Assembly (NCBI GenBank): GCA_900546355.1
Contig: URCM01000006.1
Span: 1-53,938, forward strand
Direction of reading: 5' to 3'
DNA: 53,938 bases
DNA from: an uncultured Bacteroides sp.
Lineage (GTDB): Bacteria; Bacteroidota; Bacteroidia; Bacteroidales; Bacteroidaceae
Shown: piece after piece, positions 9,598 through 44,163 of the stretch
Position numbering within the stretch: position 1 is the first letter of the stretch
Layout of the letters: the number at the start of each line of letters is the position of its first letter
Position numbers and translations under genes: made by a program
The notes under the pieces: model-generated
The model's database searches: none
What the model was told of the DNA's origin: nothing
Seen by the model: only the letters and a program-made list of their open reading frames with translations

Positions 9598-9610
9598 TTG
9601 TTTAATTTTA

Positions 9611-9726
9611 GGAGTTAAGAAGTTAAGGAGTTAAGTAGTTAAGGAGTTAAGCCAATAGTCAATATCGGCAAGTAAATTGCAGAAGTATTGACTTAACTTC
9701 TTAACTACTTAACTCCTTAACTACTG
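9611..9726. repeat. Low-complexity inverted repeat of AGTTAAG words
   Basis: Five tandem AGTTAAG-type words on the left (for example GGAGTTAAGAAGTTAAGG) face their complements on the right (CTTAACTTCTTAACTACTT), about 50 bp apart. It fills the gap between kinase and response regulator inside one transcription unit, and its right arm overlaps the last codons of the kinase gene. Confidence 0.8.
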
Positions 9727-11074: not shown

Positions 11075-11088
11075 TGGATTGATTGTTG

Positions 11089-11165
11089 AAACGCAGATTT
11101 TCGCAGATTCACGCAGATTGAAAAATAGAAAATAATCTGCGGAAATCTGCGTGAATCTGCGTTTT
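11089..11165. repeat. Inverted repeat of CGCAGATT words
   Basis: The left arm has three CGCAGATT-like words (ACGCAGATTTTCGCAGATT and a third), and the right arm has the complements in altered order, separated by an A-rich loop. It lies between DUF6261 and the histidine kinase gene and could fold into a long hairpin that terminates or attenuates transcription. Confidence 0.8.
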
Positions 11166-11179
11166 GTCTGAAAAGTCTG

Positions 11180-11944
11180 TTACACTTCCGGTTCCGGTTT
11201 TTTCCGCTTTGCCTGCGCGATGCGCTGGTTGTAGAGGGCGTTCATCTCGTCAATCAGGGCGTTGAGGTTGGTGACGAACGTGGCGGTGGCGTCCGTAGGA
11301 TGCGCCACGCTCTGCACGAACGCCACGGTGGCGATGTAGTCGTACAGCTCGTCCATGCGCAGGCGCACCGTCTTGCTTTCGTCCAGGCGGCTGGCGGCAC
11401 GCTCCTCGGTGCGCTGCTCGGTCAGCGAGGCATACTCTTCGTTCGCCGTTTCCAGTTCCGTGAGGATGTTGGTCAGCGCGAGCGTCTCCACGTTGGGCGC
11501 GTTCTCCGCCTTGCGCGCGTCGGTCAGCAAGCCACGTATCTGCACCGTTTCCTGCTGCGAGGGCGAACGGTAGCAGCCCACGTAAGGTTTCAGCACATTG
11601 TAGAGGGAGGTTGCCGCCGATTTCTCCGCCGCCACGGGCGAAGACTTCTTGTTGCGGATAGAGTTGAAAAGATAGACCACGAGGTCGTCGCGCTGCTTGT
11701 CTACGTCGGCAAGTTCCGCCGTGCGGTCGCTGATGCGGCTCTGCGCCACGATGTCGTTCATCGTTCCCAGCAGCGTTTCGTATTCTTCCTGCACCTCCGC
11801 CTCGATGCCCAGTGCCGAACCGCCGTCGGGTTCGAGCGTCCCTGCCTGCTCTACGAGGGTGAGGACACGGGTAGAGAAGTTAGTGTATTCGGCGTTGTTC
11901 AGCTTTGCCAAGCCGATTTCTTGGATTTTCACTATTTGTTTCAT
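11180..11944 (-). CDS. DUF6261 family protein
   Basis: The 254-residue product has no signal peptide and no membrane segment. It appears all-helical, rich in Glu, Ala, Leu and Arg, with a basic tail (QAKRKKPEPEV). The N-terminus (KIQEIGLAKLNNAEYTNFSTRV) is the characteristic start of DUF6261, a family I know only from Bacteroidetes, with no assigned function. Upstream lies a tandem array of 42/43-nt units (12068-12291); weaker units in register continue down to 5 nt before the start codon. Downstream on the same strand are kinase, regulator and hydrolase. The start was chosen because it opens the conserved N-terminus. No catalytic motif is visible; DNA or RNA binding is a guess based on the array. 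Confidence 0.85.
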   Translation of the reverse strand: MKQIVKIQEIGLAKLNNAEYTNFSTRVLTLVEQAGTLEPDGGSALGIEAEVQEEYETLLGTMNDIVAQSRISDRTAELADVDKQRDDLVVYLFNSIRNKKSSPVAAEKSAATSLYNVLKPYVGCYRSPSQQETVQIRGLLTDARKAENAPNVETLALTNILTELETANEEYASLTEQRTEERAASRLDESKTVRLRMDELYDYIATVAFVQSVAHPTDATATFVTNLNALIDEMNALYNQRIAQAKRKKPEPEV

Positions 11945-11948
11945 CGTT

Positions 11949-12067
11949 CAAAATGTGTTTTAGTAAGACAAAATAAGTATTATCACGCTTTCAAAATTAG
12001 TTCTATTTTTCGAAAAACCACCTCGGAAGTGGATAAAAATGTGCAGCGTGTCCCGAAAACTGGCCTT
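11949..12067. repeat. Degenerate, in-register extension of the 43-nt array into the DUF6261 leader
   Basis: Box-A-like words occur at 11949 (CAAAATG), 11992 (CAAAATT) and 12035 (AAAAATG), each 43 nt apart and 43 nt before the first intact unit (C at 12078). Unit 11949 also continues as CAAAATGTGTTTTAG, 14 of 15 identical to unit 1. Boxes B and C are not recognisable in these three units, so they look decayed or have diverged under different constraint. Confidence 0.55.
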
Positions 12068-12291
12068 GAAAAACGTGCAAAATGCGTTTTAGAGGTCTGA
12101 ATCGGGCTTTGCAGACATGCAAAATGCAATCCAGAGGTCTAAAACAGACTTTGCAAGTGTTGCAAAATGGTTTTCAGAGGTCTAAAATGCACCTTGCAGG
12201 CGTGCAAAATGTAATTTAGAGGTCTAAAACGGATTTTGCAAGTGTTGCAAGGTGGTTTTTAGAGGTCTGAATTGCATTTTGCACGTTTTCC
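12068..12291. repeat. Tandem array of five 42/43-nt three-box units upstream of DUF6261
   Basis: Each unit has box A (GCAAAATG; GCAAGGTG in unit 5), exactly 6 nt, box B (AGAGGTCT), exactly 10 nt, box C (TTGCA), then 5 or 6 nt. Box B starts at 12091, 12133, 12176, 12218 and 12261, so steps alternate 42, 43, 42, 43. Within a unit, GCAA and TTGC form outer inverted arms, and TTTAGA-GG-TCTAAA is a near-palindrome around box B. The whole array is bracketed by an 18-bp inverted repeat with one mismatch (12068-12085 and 12274-12291). The 6-nt and 10-nt inter-box segments differ between units. No cas gene lies nearby. Function unknown. Confidence 0.9.
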
Positions 12292-12382: not shown

Positions 12383-12736
12383 ATGAGACGGAAGATAATC
12401 GCATTCGGGAAATACTATAAGGACTTCCTTTCTGCATTGGGCGAGAAGGAAGTGTTGAAAGTGAAATACGTCTTGTCGCTATTGGAAACAGAAGACAGGA
12501 TGCCTGTGAAATTCATAAAAGCCATACGCGACGGCTTGTATGAGTTGCGCATATCGTATAAGGGAAATATTTACCGCATCTTTTTTATCTTTGATGAAGG
12601 GCAAATCGTAGTGCTTTTCAACGGATTCCAAAAGAAGACGCAGAAGACGCCGCCCTCGGAAATAGCAAAGGCATTACAAATAAAGGAGGAATATTATGAA
12701 TACAAACGAAGAAATGCTGACCGACATCAGCGCTGA
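12383..12736 (+). CDS. higB: RelE/HigB-type toxin of a type II toxin-antitoxin pair
   Basis: The 117-residue product (RRKIIAFGKYYKDFLSAL..., with VKFIKAIRDGLYELRISYKGNIYRIFFIF) has the pattern of the phage Gp49/HigB branch of the RelE superfamily. These are ribosome-dependent mRNA endonucleases neutralised by an antitoxin. The basic residues and central beta-strands (YELRIS, YRIFFIF, IVVLFNGF) are intact. The chosen ATG opens this conserved region; in-frame codons upstream to 12272 overlap the array edge and promoter and are not supported. Its 3' end overlaps the antitoxin gene by 41 nt. Toxin-first order with an Xre antitoxin is typical of HigBA. Confidence 0.88.
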   Translation: MRRKIIAFGKYYKDFLSALGEKEVLKVKYVLSLLETEDRMPVKFIKAIRDGLYELRISYKGNIYRIFFIFDEGQIVVLFNGFQKKTQKTPPSEIAKALQIKEEYYEYKRRNADRHQR

Positions 12737-13001
12737 ACTGGATAAGGAGTTCGGTGCGCCCGGCACGCCCGAACGTGCGAAGTTCGACGAAGAAGCGTAT
12801 GCGTTCTACACAAGCCAGATTCTGCTTGACGCAAGAAAGGAGGCGGGAATGACCCAGTCCGAGCTTGCCGACCGCCTCAGCGTGACAAAATCGTACATCT
12901 CACGGATTGAGAAAGGAGTGATAACCCCCAGTGTCGCCACTTTCTACCGGATAATGCACGCCCTGGGGATGAGGGTTGAGGTGGTCAAGCCGATTGTGTG
13001 A
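12696..13001 (+). CDS. higA: Xre-family antitoxin (HigA-like)
   Basis: The 101-residue protein carries a helix-turn-helix at about residues 42-95 (DARKEAGMTQSELADRLSVTKSYISRIEKG). A good ribosome-binding site (GGAGGAATATT) precedes its ATG inside the toxin frame, unusual in a group that mostly lacks Shine-Dalgarno signals, and it could give antitoxin in excess over toxin. It should bind the toxin through its N-terminal part and repress at the palindrome 12347-12364. The gene is intact, so the module is probably functional. Confidence 0.9.
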   Translation: MNTNEEMLTDISAELDKEFGAPGTPERAKFDEEAYAFYTSQILLDARKEAGMTQSELADRLSVTKSYISRIEKGVITPSVATFYRIMHALGMRVEVVKPIV

Positions 13002-13190: not shown

Positions 13191-15464
13191 ATGAAAACAT
13201 TCTTTTTCTTGCTGATGTGCGGACTTTGTACGGCTACACTCTCCGCCCAAAGCCTGACGGGGACGGTGACCGATGCCGACCGGCAGCCCGTGGAAGCCGC
13301 TACGGTGGTATTGCAAACCGCCGACTCTACCTATATCGATGCGACCTTGACCGACAGCTTGGGGGCGTTCCGCTTCGGGCAGCGTCCCGAGAGGTACCGC
13401 CTCATCGTGGAACACCTTATTTATAATACCTGCATCCGCGAAGGGAGCGGGACAGACGCGGATACCCTCGTGCTGACGCCGCGCGACTATGCGCTGGACG
13501 AGGTGACGGTGCGCGGCGAGCGTCCGCTGGTGAAGGTGGAGGGCAGCCGCCTGACTTACGACGTGGCGCAAATTGCCGCCAGCCGCCTCGTGACCAACGC
13601 CTACGAAGCCTTGCTGCAGCTGCCGGGCGTGGTGGAGAAAGACGGCGTGCCTGCCCTTGCCGGAAGCGGAAGCCTGGGCATCGTGCTCAACGGCAAGCCT
13701 TCGTCGATGACCGCCGAGCAGCTCATCGCCCTGCTGAAGGCAACGCCTGCCTCGCGCATGGAACGGGCGGAGGTGATGTATAGCGCGCCGCCCCAATACC
13801 ATGTGCGCGGCGCGGCGGTCAACCTCGTGCTGAAAGGTTACAAGGCTGGCGAAGGCGGCCTGCAGGGCGAGGTGAACGGCAACTACGCGCAGAAGGACGA
13901 AGCCGGAGGCAACGGGGGCGTGACGCTGGCGTGGCTCTCGCAGCGGTGGGACGTGGACGCGATGTACCACCTGAGCGACTATTATTACCGGCAGGGAATG
14001 GACTTCCGCGCCCTGCACACCGCAGACGGAGAGACGCACGACATCCGCCTGTCTGAAGATGACAGCGGACGGAGCCTGACCCATACCTTCCGCACCGCCG
14101 CCACCTACAAGCCCACGGAGGACGACCGCCTCAGCCTCAGCTATACCGGAAGCCTCAAGCCCGACGGGAAATCGACGGCAGACGCATGGGGCAACGTGAC
14201 GGACTCGCACAACGGCAAGCGGAGCGATACGCAGCTGCATAACGCCGCGCTGAACTATACCTCCGGCTTCGGGCTGAGCGCAGGCGCCGACTACACCTAT
14301 TACAAAGACGAGAGCACGCAAGACTTCACCGACACCGAAGCCGAGCCGTCCGCCTTCCGAAGCGACTCGCGCCAGCGCATCGGACGCTGGAAAGTGTATG
14401 CCGACCAGAGCCATTCGCTCGCAAAGGGCTGGACGCTGAACTACGGCACGGCGTTCACCTACGTGAACAACCGCAACTCGCAACGCTATGACCTGCCCGA
14501 GATGAGCGGCATGGACAGCGAAAGCCGCATCGATGAATATACCTACAACGTCTATGCCGGATTCGACAAGGCGTTCAGTCCGCAATGGAACCTCAGCGCG
14601 TCGGCGGCGGTGGAATACTATAAGATGGCGGACTACCGGAAGTGGGCGGTCTACCCCACCCTCTCGCTGAACTACATGCCTTCGGCGGCACACATCTTCC
14701 AGCTTTCGTTCAGCTCGGACAAGACCTATCCCGACTACTGGACGCTGAGCGGCAGCACCAGCTACCTGAACGGCTATCAGGTGATAGAAGGCAACGCCAG
14801 CCTGCACCCCTACACCGACTATACCGCCACGCTGACCTACATCTGGAAGAGCAAGTACATCGTGCAGGCGGAATACAGCTACGTGCCCGACTACTTTATG
14901 CAGATGGCATACCTGGACTCGAACGAGCTGCGTGCCATTTATAATTACCAGAACTGGGACTACCTGCAGCTGCTCACGTTCACCGCCGTCGTCCCCTTCC
15001 GCGTAGGCACGTGGTGGGACAGCCAGCTGACGCTGAACGCCCAGCTGAAGCACGACAAGGCGAGCCGCTACTACGACGCTCCCTTCGACAACAAGCGGTG
15101 GGCAGGCATCGGGCAGTGGACCAACACCTTCACCCTGAGCAGCCGCCCCAATATCCGTCTGGAAATCTCCGCCTTCGGGCAGACAGGAGCCATACAGGGC
15201 AGTTACCGCCTCGGTGCCGTGGGCTATGTGGATGCCGCCCTGCGCTACACCTTCGCCGGCGACAAAGCGATGCTCCAACTGAAAGGCACCGACCTCTTCA
15301 ACGGGATGAACCACCTCGACATCGAGTCGCGCAACGGCACCCAGCACTTCGACATGCACGTAAAGAACTACGCCCGCAGCCTCACCGTCTCGTTCAGCTA
15401 CCGCTTCGGCGGATATAAGAAGAAGGAGGCGAAAGAGGTGGATACGTCGCGGTTCGGAATGTGA
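13191..15464 (+). CDS. TonB-type outer-membrane barrel protein with carboxypeptidase-like N-terminal domain
   Basis: The 757-residue product has a signal peptide (cut near LSAQ), a carboxypeptidase-regulatory-like beta-sandwich (about 22-100; SLTGTVTDADRQPVEAATVVL), a plug-like region (LDEVTVRGERPLVKVEGSRLTYDV, LQLPGVVEKDG, IVLNGKPSSM) and a long beta-barrel. This is the outer-membrane beta-barrel family that in Bacteroidetes is usually paired with a dedicated two-component or ToxR-like regulator. The ligand is unknown. It differs from SusC by lacking the typical SusC plug motifs, and no SusD gene follows. Base composition is visibly GC-rich. Three 11-bp repeats at the promoter suggest control by an OmpR-class regulator. 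Confidence 0.85.
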   Translation: MKTFFFLLMCGLCTATLSAQSLTGTVTDADRQPVEAATVVLQTADSTYIDATLTDSLGAFRFGQRPERYRLIVEHLIYNTCIREGSGTDADTLVLTPRDYALDEVTVRGERPLVKVEGSRLTYDVAQIAASRLVTNAYEALLQLPGVVEKDGVPALAGSGSLGIVLNGKPSSMTAEQLIALLKATPASRMERAEVMYSAPPQYHVRGAAVNLVLKGYKAGEGGLQGEVNGNYAQKDEAGGNGGVTLAWLSQRWDVDAMYHLSDYYYRQGMDFRALHTADGETHDIRLSEDDSGRSLTHTFRTAATYKPTEDDRLSLSYTGSLKPDGKSTADAWGNVTDSHNGKRSDTQLHNAALNYTSGFGLSAGADYTYYKDESTQDFTDTEAEPSAFRSDSRQRIGRWKVYADQSHSLAKGWTLNYGTAFTYVNNRNSQRYDLPEMSGMDSESRIDEYTYNVYAGFDKAFSPQWNLSASAAVEYYKMADYRKWAVYPTLSLNYMPSAAHIFQLSFSSDKTYPDYWTLSGSTSYLNGYQVIEGNASLHPYTDYTATLTYIWKSKYIVQAEYSYVPDYFMQMAYLDSNELRAIYNYQNWDYLQLLTFTAVVPFRVGTWWDSQLTLNAQLKHDKASRYYDAPFDNKRWAGIGQWTNTFTLSSRPNIRLEISAFGQTGAIQGSYRLGAVGYVDAALRYTFAGDKAMLQLKGTDLFNGMNHLDIESRNGTQHFDMHVKNYARSLTVSFSYRFGGYKKKEAKEVDTSRFGM

Positions 15465-32008: not shown

Positions 32009-32088
32009 TAACCGCTTTCGCAAAGCCAAACGGCTGCTCAGTCCGGTGGATGCCACTCCCTCAGTCCTGTGCAGCCAGTTTCACCTTT

Positions 32089-32164
32089 GTTTCATTATAC
32101 TGAAACTTTAGTTTCAATGCTCTGAAACTAGAGTTTCAATGCGTCAGAACCAATGTTTCAGTGC
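32089..32164. repeat. GTTTCA array with 22-bp period
   Basis: GTTTCA starts at 32089, 32111, 32133 and 32155, exactly 22 bp apart. Between them CTGAAAC (or CAGAACC) half-sites make palindromic units such as TGAAACTTTAGTTTCA and TGAAACTAGAGTTTCA. It begins 80 bp after the MFS stop codon and lies beyond the stop of the convergent DUF3109 gene. The strict phase (two helical turns) suggests a binding-site array. Confidence 0.75.
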
Positions 32165-41202: not shown

Positions 41203-44163
41203 TTATAAGGTTTGTTTCACTTCCACTTCTTCATAAGTTTCTATTACATCGCCTACTTTCAAGTCGTTGCAGTTCGTAAGGCTGATGCCACACTCGAAAT
41301 TCGTGCCAACCTCTTTCACATCATCCTTGAAACGTTTCAAAGCATTGATAGAACCAGTAAACACAACGATACCATCACGTATCAACCGAGCTTTATCAGT
41401 ACGTTTCACTTTACCGGTCTTCACCATCGCACCGGCTACCATACCTACCTTGCTTATATTAAAGACTTCAAGCACTTCGATGGTAGCGGTCACTTCTTCT
41501 TTCAACGTAGGAGCAAGCATACCTTCCATAGCAGCCTTCACTTCCTCAATGGCATCATAAATAATAGAATACTTACGGATATCCACTCCTTCCTGTTCCG
41601 CCAACTTAGCAGCGTTGTTTGAAGGACGTACCTGGAAACCTACAATGATGGCATCCGATGCTGCAGCCAATGAAACATCTGATTCTGAAATTTGCCCTAC
41701 TCCCTTGTGGATAACATTCACTTGTATTTGGGGAGTAGAAAGTTTTATCAACGAATCGCTTAATGCTTCTACCGAACCATCCACATCACCTTTCACAATG
41801 ATATTCAACTCATGGAAATCACCTAACGCCAAACGACGTCCCACTTCATCCAGCGTCAACATCTTTTGTGTACGCAAACCTTGTTCACGCTGTAACTGTT
41901 CACGTTTATTGGCTATTTCGCGTGCCTCTTGTTCTGTTTCAAACACATGGAACGTATCACCTGCTGCCGGAGCGCCATTCAATCCCAATATCAATACCGG
42001 TTCCGATGGCCCTGCCTCTTTCAGGCGCTGATTACGTTCATTAAACATCGCTTTCACCTTGCCGTAATATTTCCCAGCCAATACGATATCGCCTACATGC
42101 AGCGTACCGTTCGATACCAACACCGTTGCTACATAACCACGGCCTCTATCCAGAGATGACTCGATAATAGAACCGGTCGCTTTGCGGTTCGGATTAGCTT
42201 TCAAATCGAGCATTTCAGCTTCCAGCAAAACTTTTTCCAACAGTTCTTTCACACCGATGCCTTTCTTGGCGGAGATATCTTGCGACTGATATTTACCGCC
42301 CCACTCCTCTACCAAAAAGTTCATTTGAGCCAGCTCTTCCTTTATTTTATCAGGGTTAGCGTTCGGTTTGTCTATCTTGTTTATAGCAAACACGATAGGT
42401 ACTCCTGCCGCCATAGCGTGATTAATGGCTTCTTTAGTTTGCGGCATCACGTTATCGTCAGCCGCAACAATGACAATCACTACGTCGGTCACTTTCGCTC
42501 CACGAGCACGCATCGCAGTAAATGCTTCATGTCCCGGTGTATCAAGGAACGTAATGTGACGTCCGTCTTCCAGTTTCACATTATAAGCACCAATATGCTG
42601 CGTAATACCTCCCGCTTCACCAGCTATCACGTTGGCCTTACGGATATAGTCGAGCAACGAAGTCTTACCATGGTCAACGTGCCCCATTACCGTTACAATC
42701 GGCGCACGAGGCTGCAAATCTTCTTCAGCATCCACTTCTTCCTCTACTGCCTGTGCCACTTCCGCACTGACATATTCGGTTCTGAATCCGAATTCTTCGG
42801 CAACCAGATTAATCGTTTCCGCATCCAAACGCTGATTAATAGACACCATGATGCCGACACTCATACAGGTAGATATAACCTGGGTTACCGGCACATTCAT
42901 CATGCTTGCCAATTCGTTGGCAGTCACGAACTCGGTCAGTTTCAGCACCTTGCTTTCTTCTTGTTCCAGTTCTTCCTGCTCCAGTTGACGGTTTTGTATG
43001 CTTTCTCTTTTCTCTTTCCGATATTTGGCAGCCTTGTTTTTGCCTTTATTTGTCAGACGCGCCAATGTTTCTTTCACCTGTTTTGCCACATCTTCATCAC
43101 TCACTTCAGGCTTCACCACCGCTTTCTTAAAACGATCCTTATTGTGCTTGCCGCTTCCTTGCGATGCGTTCTTACCCGACTTGTTTTCATTACGTGGCAC
43201 AACCACTCCGCTCGCATTGATATCTATTTTCTCTTTGCTTATGCGATTACGTTTCTTTTTCGAAGCATTATCCGCATTATTTCCTTTTTCCACCTTTTCA
43301 TCGGTTTTCCGGATTTCCTTAATAATGGCATCCTTCATTTGCCGGCGTTGTTCCTGACGTTGTTTATCCTTTTCCTCCCGTTCTTTTCGCTTTTCTTCTT
43401 TCGATTTCTTTTTCGGGCGGGTTGACTGGTTCAATGTAGCCAAATCGATTTGTCCTACTACATTAATTTTCGATTTGAACTCGGTAGGACGAATCTTAAA
43501 TATTCCATCTTCAGTGCTACCTTGCACTTTCTGTGTTTCTGTTGTTTCTTTCTTTTCTTCCATCGGCTCCGGTTTCAAGTCCTCTGCTTTTGTTTTTTCG
43601 GGCTGTGTTGATACTTCATCTATTATCTGTGGCTGCTGCTGCAAGGTTACAGAGACCTCTTCTTTCGGAAGAGATTCTTCAACCGACGGAACAATCTCAG
43701 CAGCAGGTACTGCCGGTTGCACCGTTTCAGGTGTGGAAATTTCCGTTGCTACTTTCTCTCCTTTGGTTTTCTCCGTTACCTGTTCTTCTACAGCCGGTTT
43801 ATTTTTCTTTTTTTTATTATACAGACTGTCCAAATCGATTTTCCCTACAGGTTTAAATCGCGGACGGCTCTCTTCAGGAACCACTGTCTCGATCATGACA
43901 GACTTGTTATCAGTATGCAGATCCTCAATTGAAACAGAAGCCTTATTCCGTTCTTTGTTCTGACGTTCTTGGAAAATCTTCTCCGACTCTATCTTCAAAT
44001 CCTTATCTTTGCTAAACTCTTTCACAAGTGCAGCATATTGTTCGTCAGTTATCCTCGCGTTCGGATTAGCTTCGATGTCATATCCTTGCTTTTGCAAAAA
44101 ATCGACCACCGTAGCTATTCCTACATTCAAATCTCTTGTTACTTTGTTCAGTCTTATCATCAT
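41203..44163 (-). CDS. infB: Translation initiation factor IF-2
   Basis: The 986-residue GTPase places initiator tRNA on the 30S subunit. The long N-terminal part (about 1-480) is charged and low in complexity (Lys/Glu/Pro-rich), as usual in Bacteroidetes. The G domain starts at [12 protein letters not shown], with [11 protein letters not shown] and [12 protein letters not shown], followed by domains II-IV to the end ([13 protein letters not shown]). It is preceded by nusA with a 77-bp gap. Confidence 0.98.

Follow-up and report, generated by a model that had tools for sequence, protein, structure and literature searches.

Genes of the DUF6261 family usually lie directly downstream of a tandem array whose units recur at about four turns of the DNA helix, and this pairing of array and gene is well supported and was replicated in a second set of loci. 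The window, by which we mean the whole stretch of 53,938 nt analysed here from a contig of an uncultured Bacteroides sp., contains one such pair: a DUF6261 gene (11180..11944, minus strand) preceded by an array of five units (12076..12283, minus strand). These observations point to an undescribed protein-DNA system behind the DUF6261 genes and their arrays. DUF6261 has no known function, and its fixed link to an array that is locked in period and free in sequence supplies a first testable function for the family. A general question is raised as well, namely how the cores of all units in an array change simultaneously while the helical step stays.

The window array is built from five quasi-palindromic units of 38 nt (12076..12113, 12118..12155, 12161..12198, 12203..12240 and 12246..12283, all treated as unstranded), the first of which reads TGCAAAATG..AGAGGTCT..TTTGCA. 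They are joined, in order, by the linkers GACA, AGTGT, GGCG and AGTGT, and since these are 4 or 5 nt long, the steps alternate between 42 and 43 nt. An earlier note on this DNA had described five units with such steps, each carrying three boxes (A, B and C) separated by 6 and 10 nt, and the description of the units was borne out. The pattern A-N6-B-N10-C was exact in four of the five units, unit 5 having two mismatches, both in box A (GCAAGGTG), and no match with up to three mismatches appeared in 100 shuffles. Box B (AGAGGTCT) was exact in all five units and occurs six times in the whole window, against 0.84 copies expected from shuffles; the sixth copy lies at 43653-43660. The box pattern thus stood for the window but not as a general signature, as the boxes of related arrays differ. 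The 18-bp inverted repeat that was said to bracket the array also proved real, if imperfect: its arms, at 12068..12085 (GAAAAACGTGCAAAATGC, overlapping unit 1) and 12274..12291 (GCATTTTGCACGTTTTCC, overlapping unit 5), both unstranded, are complementary at 17 of 18 bases, and a 40-nt inverted pair surrounds them. Terminal inverted repeats around a tandem interior are present in window-type arrays, including similar ends on arrays that stand alone. The window array also precedes two genes on the plus strand (12383-13001), which encode a RelE/HigB-type toxin and an HTH protein.

Other repeats occur in the window. A perfect 18-bp inverted repeat behind the DUF6261 gene (11102-11161) is a feature separate from the array bracket, and an inverted repeat of about 80 bp with CGCAGATT-type arms (11085-11164), likewise behind the gene, is dispersed over many sites in several genomes of the same genus. 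Octamer tandem repeats, AGGAGTTA at 9610-9651 and ACTTAACT at 9691-9725, lie between response-regulator and kinase genes, and 22-nt tandem repeats with TTTCA/TGAAA dyads, at a step close to two helical turns, lie at 32085-32164.

Association of array and gene was examined at 93 DUF6261 loci, comprising 22 from a survey of 40 relatives, 28 new loci and 40 more in list order, two further loci and the window; this set includes the truncated frames L012, L025 and L051 and the identical pair L044/L061. With an array called by Tandem Repeats Finder (TRF) at a period of 36-46 or 78-88 within 800 nt, an upstream array was found at 67 of the 93 loci and a downstream array at 3. The best-scoring upstream repeat had a period of 40-42, 80-86 or 120-127 in 66 of the 67 loci with a repeat of period at least 25. 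Among the 26 TRF-negative loci, 25 were covered by autocorrelation (L079, like L290 in the second set, was untestable by lag), and the best lag between 25 and 60 fell at 40-43 in 18 of these 25 upstream regions, where about 2.8 would be expected, and in 2 of 25 downstream regions. The second set consisted of the next 40 listed loci, among them L310 and L311, which are identical. A single locus was encountered twice in the survey, as L074 and as L204/L276. Here TRF found an upstream array at 27 of 40 loci and a downstream array at one, the best lag was 40-43 in 33 of 39 upstream regions versus 6 of 40 downstream regions, and 35 of the 40 loci had an array by either test. No array was found by either test at 8 of the 93 and 5 of the 40 loci, counting L079 and L290, which lack the lag test. 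The pairing that the earlier note had drawn from position in a single stretch therefore held, and a random arrangement of arrays with respect to DUF6261 genes, the outcome that it had named as contrary to its proposal, was not what we found. Among eight new loci from a phylum-wide search, TRF identified an upstream array of about 41 nt in two (L184 and L185, both outside the order), and two more (L178 and L181) appeared by eye to have degenerate arrays.

The step is the most constant property of the arrays. Pooled autocorrelation of 89 upstream regions gave peaks at 41, 42, 82-84, 123 and 126, and 91 downstream and 90 coding regions gave only the 3-nt coding rhythm. In 67 parsed arrays, all 309 steps fell within 40-43 nt (26, 163, 109 and 11 steps at 40, 41, 42 and 43 nt, respectively; mean 41.34), although chaining of units permitted 38-46 nt and the arrays had been pre-chosen by TRF period, a selection of which the pooled autocorrelation is free. 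The mean of 41.3 nt corresponds to about four turns of B-DNA, in agreement with the earlier note. Unit consensus sequences are mostly unrelated from locus to locus; what persists is the period, the layout and the palindromy. The rough dyad symmetry noted in the window extends to the other arrays, the best dyad pairing 6.42 of 10 positions versus 5.04 in column-shuffled units (66 arrays). AA/TT phasing was weak, exceeding the control in 37 of 61 arrays.

The window gene encodes a protein of 254 aa that matches the Pfam profile of DUF6261 (PF19775; E 9.5e-45; 152.7 bits, with a cut-off of 27), the only family found in a Pfam search at E 0.01. Its AlphaFold model is all-helical (pLDDT 92, pTM 0.67), so that the gene was rightly recognized from the start as encoding a helical DUF6261 protein. 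The model had no fold match at E 0.001, the search for a sequence relative of known structure yielded none that was significant (best E 0.055), NCBIfam gave no match, and PADLOC gave none for the four DUF6261 proteins searched. Only D82, R194 and N228 are nearly invariant alignment columns among 88 DUF6261 proteins. These proteins are mostly acidic (median pI 5.17; 72 of 88 below 6) and the model has no significant fold match, so that DNA binding by DUF6261 is only putative. Profile searches detected the family in 9 of 40 relatives and, within the order, in 45 of 392 genomes, representing 30 of 204 sampled genera, with up to nine scored copies per genome. Of 296 genomes sampled across the phylum, 6 carry it, four of them outside the order, and so the family is not confined to one order. 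One copy (G100:C104:7702-8121) has two in-frame TAA stops and is apparently a pseudogene. Across 92 loci, no neighbouring gene family was present at more than three. In the literature searched, mostly outside the subscription journals, DUF6261 appeared in a single paper, where it stands in a table of variants.

Between the window array and the start codon lies TAATTTTG (11992..11999, minus strand), a match to TAnnTTTG, which we take to be the Bacteroides -7 type promoter motif, and which is probably the promoter of the DUF6261 gene. Motifs of this class are enriched upstream of DUF6261 genes, TAnnTTTG being present at 20 of 88 loci versus 6.2 expected, and either TAnnTTTG or TAnnTTCG within 150 nt of the start at 26 of 88 versus 9.6 expected. 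In all 17 loci having both a motif and a parsed array, the motif lies between array and gene; this placement is weak evidence, because the test considered only the motif closest to the start codon within the preceding 150 nt, which favours that position.

Arrays are not restricted to DUF6261 genes. Arrays of the L016 type occupy ten places in one genome (G001, counting L016 itself), two beside DUF6261 and eight with no DUF6261 gene within 1.5 kb; L060-type arrays occupy three places in G329 and L064-type arrays five places in G197, one with a gene in each case; and window-type arrays occur at two, five and three places in G001, G830 and G837, some of them standing alone. We scanned for the base rate of arrays of this period at a TRF score of at least 100. 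In G197, a genome rich in DUF6261, 400 kb contained 16 arrays of about 42-nt or doubled period (L096-L115), 15 of them away from DUF6261. None of these 15 standalone arrays matches another, and one region (L112) matches one of six DUF6261 arrays tested. Twenty other genomes with DUF6261 yielded six arrays in 392 kb (three beside the gene, one at a contig end, one standalone and one weak), from stretches taken mostly from contigs with DUF6261 matches, which favours arrays near the gene. No such arrays were found in 400 kb of G307, which has no DUF6261, or in 278 kb from 20 DUF6261-negative genomes, three of whose stretches were under 1.3 kb. These base rates indicate that arrays track the DUF6261 family at the level of the genome, though not each array has a gene. 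Some standalone arrays (L231, L233 and L238) are directly upstream of other genes. An exclusive tie between array and gene was accordingly too strong a reading: the array is the usual upstream partner of DUF6261, but related arrays occur elsewhere without the gene, many of them standalone in G197, and the window array itself also faces the toxin and HTH genes.

At the chromosomal site of the window array, which is flanked by a gene for a histidine kinase and one for a receptor-like protein (13191-15464, TonB-type by eye), the content of array and gene differs between genomes. The corresponding site has neither in G249, an array with a truncated gene start in G830 and G002, and both array and gene in G001. 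In G837, flanks 98.3% (kinase side) and 99.2% (toxin-antitoxin side) identical to those of the window enclose a different array, of period 42, and a DUF6261 gene whose product is 26% identical to that of the window; the RelE/HigB-type and HTH pair is kept at 99% identity next to this different cassette. We thus observed one cassette swap between near-identical flanks. The alternative G837 cassette also includes a VapBC-like gene pair, recognized by eye (L272, 1699-2456). At another pair of loci, L004 and L074, the DNA behind the gene is 95% identical, yet the genes and the upstream DNA differ.

Concerted replacement of the unit cores is well resolved in one pair, the window and its nearest relative, L006, whose proteins differ at 9 of 254 positions. 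Both arrays have five units with a common order of linkers (ACACT, CGCC or CATC, ACACT, TGTC or CGTC; 15 of 18 positions identical), and their arm columns are 96% identical versus 21% for the core columns, the cores within each array being 73% alike. As arms and linkers are kept and cores differ, the units are orthologous by position, and each of the five cores has changed. Alignments of L016/L019 and L008/L009 gave a similar pattern. Arrays of the same genus at L202 and L208 contain hybrid or mixed cores, as if core replacement proceeds stepwise.

The differences between the window protein and that of L006 are concentrated at the N-terminus: 6 of the first 15 residues (codons 1-15, 11900..11944, minus strand) differ, against 3 of the remaining 239. 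A comparable excess was found for L008/L009 (6/15 versus 4/244), and pairs with a shared core type and diverged bodies were alike at the N-terminus (L006/L074, 2/15 and 34/239; L008/L020, 2/15 and 50/229). Remnant genes adjoining arrays of the L006 core type also start like L006. When pairs were pooled, those with dissimilar upstream DNA (16 pairs) had 64 differences in 240 N-terminal positions versus 496 in 3750 body positions, and those with similar upstream DNA (6 pairs) had 14 in 90 versus 192 in 1397, with the caveat that the cut of 0.6 between the two classes was set after the values had been seen and that pairs share members, so that the p-value of this comparison cannot be read as a probability. 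This pooling leaves out L014/L018 and all L017 pairs, whose starts are uncertain, and the identical pairs L044/L061 and L310/L311. A partial correlation of N-terminus with core was nil (r 0.019, p 0.25; 1891 pairs among the 62 arrays that remain when L061, L017, L025, L051 and proteins outside 225-300 aa are left out), and the pairs L068/L070, L091/L279, L285/L302 and L296/L302 had no N-terminal excess. These comparisons are suggestive of a link between the first 15 residues and the array core, part of which a recombination breakpoint near codon 15 would explain.

Phased arrays also accompany a second protein family, first noticed from two genes adjoining arrays in G197. The family, without a Pfam match or detectable homology to DUF6261, consists of Flavobacterium-type basic helical proteins with a TGH..N motif (L105:470-1213, L111:13579-14400 and L186-L194). 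Two members in other genomes (L176 and L177) adjoin arrays of period 21, 42, 63, 84 or 105. A profile search gave nine usable loci, again including L176 and L177 and leaving out the fragments L195 and L196; four of the seven new loci (L189, L190, L191 and L192) had an array within 200 nt whose period was 21 or a multiple of it, and no such array lay within that distance at L188, L193 and L194. In four of the six array-bearing loci, the array is behind the gene. That periods of two and four helical turns occur in two families points to phasing along the DNA.

We propose, tentatively and with somewhat less than even confidence, that array and DUF6261 gene form one module acting at the level of DNA, in which phased dyads direct assembly of protein by the promoter. 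Dyad-symmetric sites four helical turns apart would place proteins bound to successive units on one face of the DNA, where they could join into a single assembly beside the DUF6261 promoter and control it. The all-helical DUF6261 protein, or a complex containing it, would bind its own array as well as related arrays elsewhere in the genome, and the first 15 or so residues of the protein may contribute to recognition of the core. The array would tolerate drift in its sequence, since a new core enters all units at once with no loss of step or palindromy, and cassettes of array and gene would be exchanged as a whole at chromosomal sites. Against the proposal stand the acidity of DUF6261 and the lack of a significant fold match, the nil partial correlation of N-terminus with core and the four pairs without N-terminal excess, the arrays that occur without the gene, the loci without an array, a promoter-like motif at only 26 of 88 loci, the weak AA/TT phasing, and the small number of compensated changes in the arms (34 of 2309 cells). 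A bolder version, which we consider rather doubtful, holds that recognition is by helical step and palindromy and not by sequence, with a matched array for each protein, co-change of N-terminus and core, concerted rewriting of the units, and cassettes swapped like alleles of self-recognition or defence systems. The arrays may also have a cruciform role. Of the options listed in the earlier note, a nucleoprotein scaffold fits best. No matching description of tandem repeats in this group, whether intergenic or set at a helical step, was found in the literature covered, which was mostly outside the subscription journals.

Four other explanations were weighed against the DNA-level module. One, unlikely in our judgement, is that the arrays are non-autonomous elements of the REP or MITE kind spreading in the genome, with DUF6261 aiding their spread or upkeep as a RAYT protein would. 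The recurrence of L016-, L060- and L064-type arrays at several sites, mostly without DUF6261, is in its favour, as are the standalone window-type arrays with similar inverted ends and the site in G249 that is empty of both array and gene. RAYT proteins have conserved HUH/Tyr nuclease residues, and palindromic REP/REPIN repeats accompany their genes; the 88 DUF6261 proteins have no recurring His/Tyr catalytic pattern beside their three nearly invariant residues. Further, the standalone arrays sampled in G197 are mutually unlike, with only the L112 region matching a tested DUF6261 array, and spread alone leaves the fixed helical step unexplained.

We regard as improbable the second explanation, in which the phased array is a binding site for some DNA-binding or nucleoid protein of the host, which sets the expression of the adjoining gene, DUF6261 being merely regulated cargo. 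The acidity of DUF6261 is consistent with this, as are the sharing of the array type by two families without detectable homology and the position of L231, L233 and L238 upstream of other genes. However, the absence of arrays from the DUF6261-negative DNA scanned (the 20 genomes and G307) implies that the arrays go with DUF6261 and not with a general host factor.

The third, a distinctly improbable one, is that transcription of the array yields repeat RNAs to which the protein binds. In type III toxin-antitoxin systems, multiple RNA repeats make up the antitoxin, and the toxin acts as an endoribonuclease (PMC8860590); in both the window and G837, the DUF6261 cassette adjoins genes of toxin-antitoxin type. 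The mismatches in the arms bear no RNA signature: a transcribed hairpin should tolerate GU pairs on its own strand, and neither strand does, the arm mismatches in clear-dyad arrays (416 pair positions, 2309 cells) comprising 67 GT, 67 AC and 120 others. Complementarity of the arrays to the start of their own gene was not in excess. No Rfam family reached its gathering score in arrays of 20 loci, the window array matching only a miRNA family at 33.1 bits versus a gathering score of 144, and PADLOC (four proteins) and NCBIfam were equally silent. In addition, arrays occur without the gene, the promoter-like motif is downstream of the array where found (by the biased test above), and RNA would give no reason for a step of helical turns. 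The non-coding RNA or guide array that had been offered for the window thus gained no support. A CRISPR-like guide array, which would have identical repeats and long unique spacers, fits poorly, as the variable parts are only 6 and 10 nt and the linkers 4-5 nt. Finally, a neutral minisatellite, in which slippage happens to yield repeats of about 42 nt at an insertion hot spot, could account for near-identical arrays that look like recent expansions (L016, nine copies, 96% alike), but is highly improbable given the step of 40-43 across unrelated sequences, the agreement of the window array with that of L006 in unit number and linker order despite switched cores, and the position of arrays upstream and rarely downstream of DUF6261.

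The nearest described elements are MITE464/PgRS and the minisatellite element BrickBuilt of Porphyromonas gingivalis, which have inverted-repeat ends and internal direct repeats, of 41 nt in PgRS and of 23 nt in the intergenic BrickBuilt (PMC4596501). They resemble the window-type arrays in their inverted ends and direct-repeat interior; the part of that account consulted describes no linked gene family, no step fixed across unrelated sequences and no concerted core change (PMC4596501). Type III toxin-antitoxin loci of the ToxIN type are like DUF6261 loci in that repeats are linked to one protein. They differ in that theirs are RNA repeats partnered with an endoribonuclease (PMC8860590), whereas the DUF6261 arrays are without an RNA signature and the protein model is all-helical. 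With REP/REPIN and RAYT, the DUF6261 system has in common the pairing of a gene with palindromic repeats and the presence of related repeats at other places in the genome, but DUF6261 is without conserved catalytic His/Tyr residues, and its repeats are tandem units at a helical step whose sequences vary by locus. Phased operator or centromere-like arrays, such as iterons and parC/parS, consist of protein sites that are sequence-specific and conserved. The DUF6261 arrays, as we propose them, would share with these the repetition of protein sites in phase with the helix; unlike them, they leave the sequence free and keep the step.
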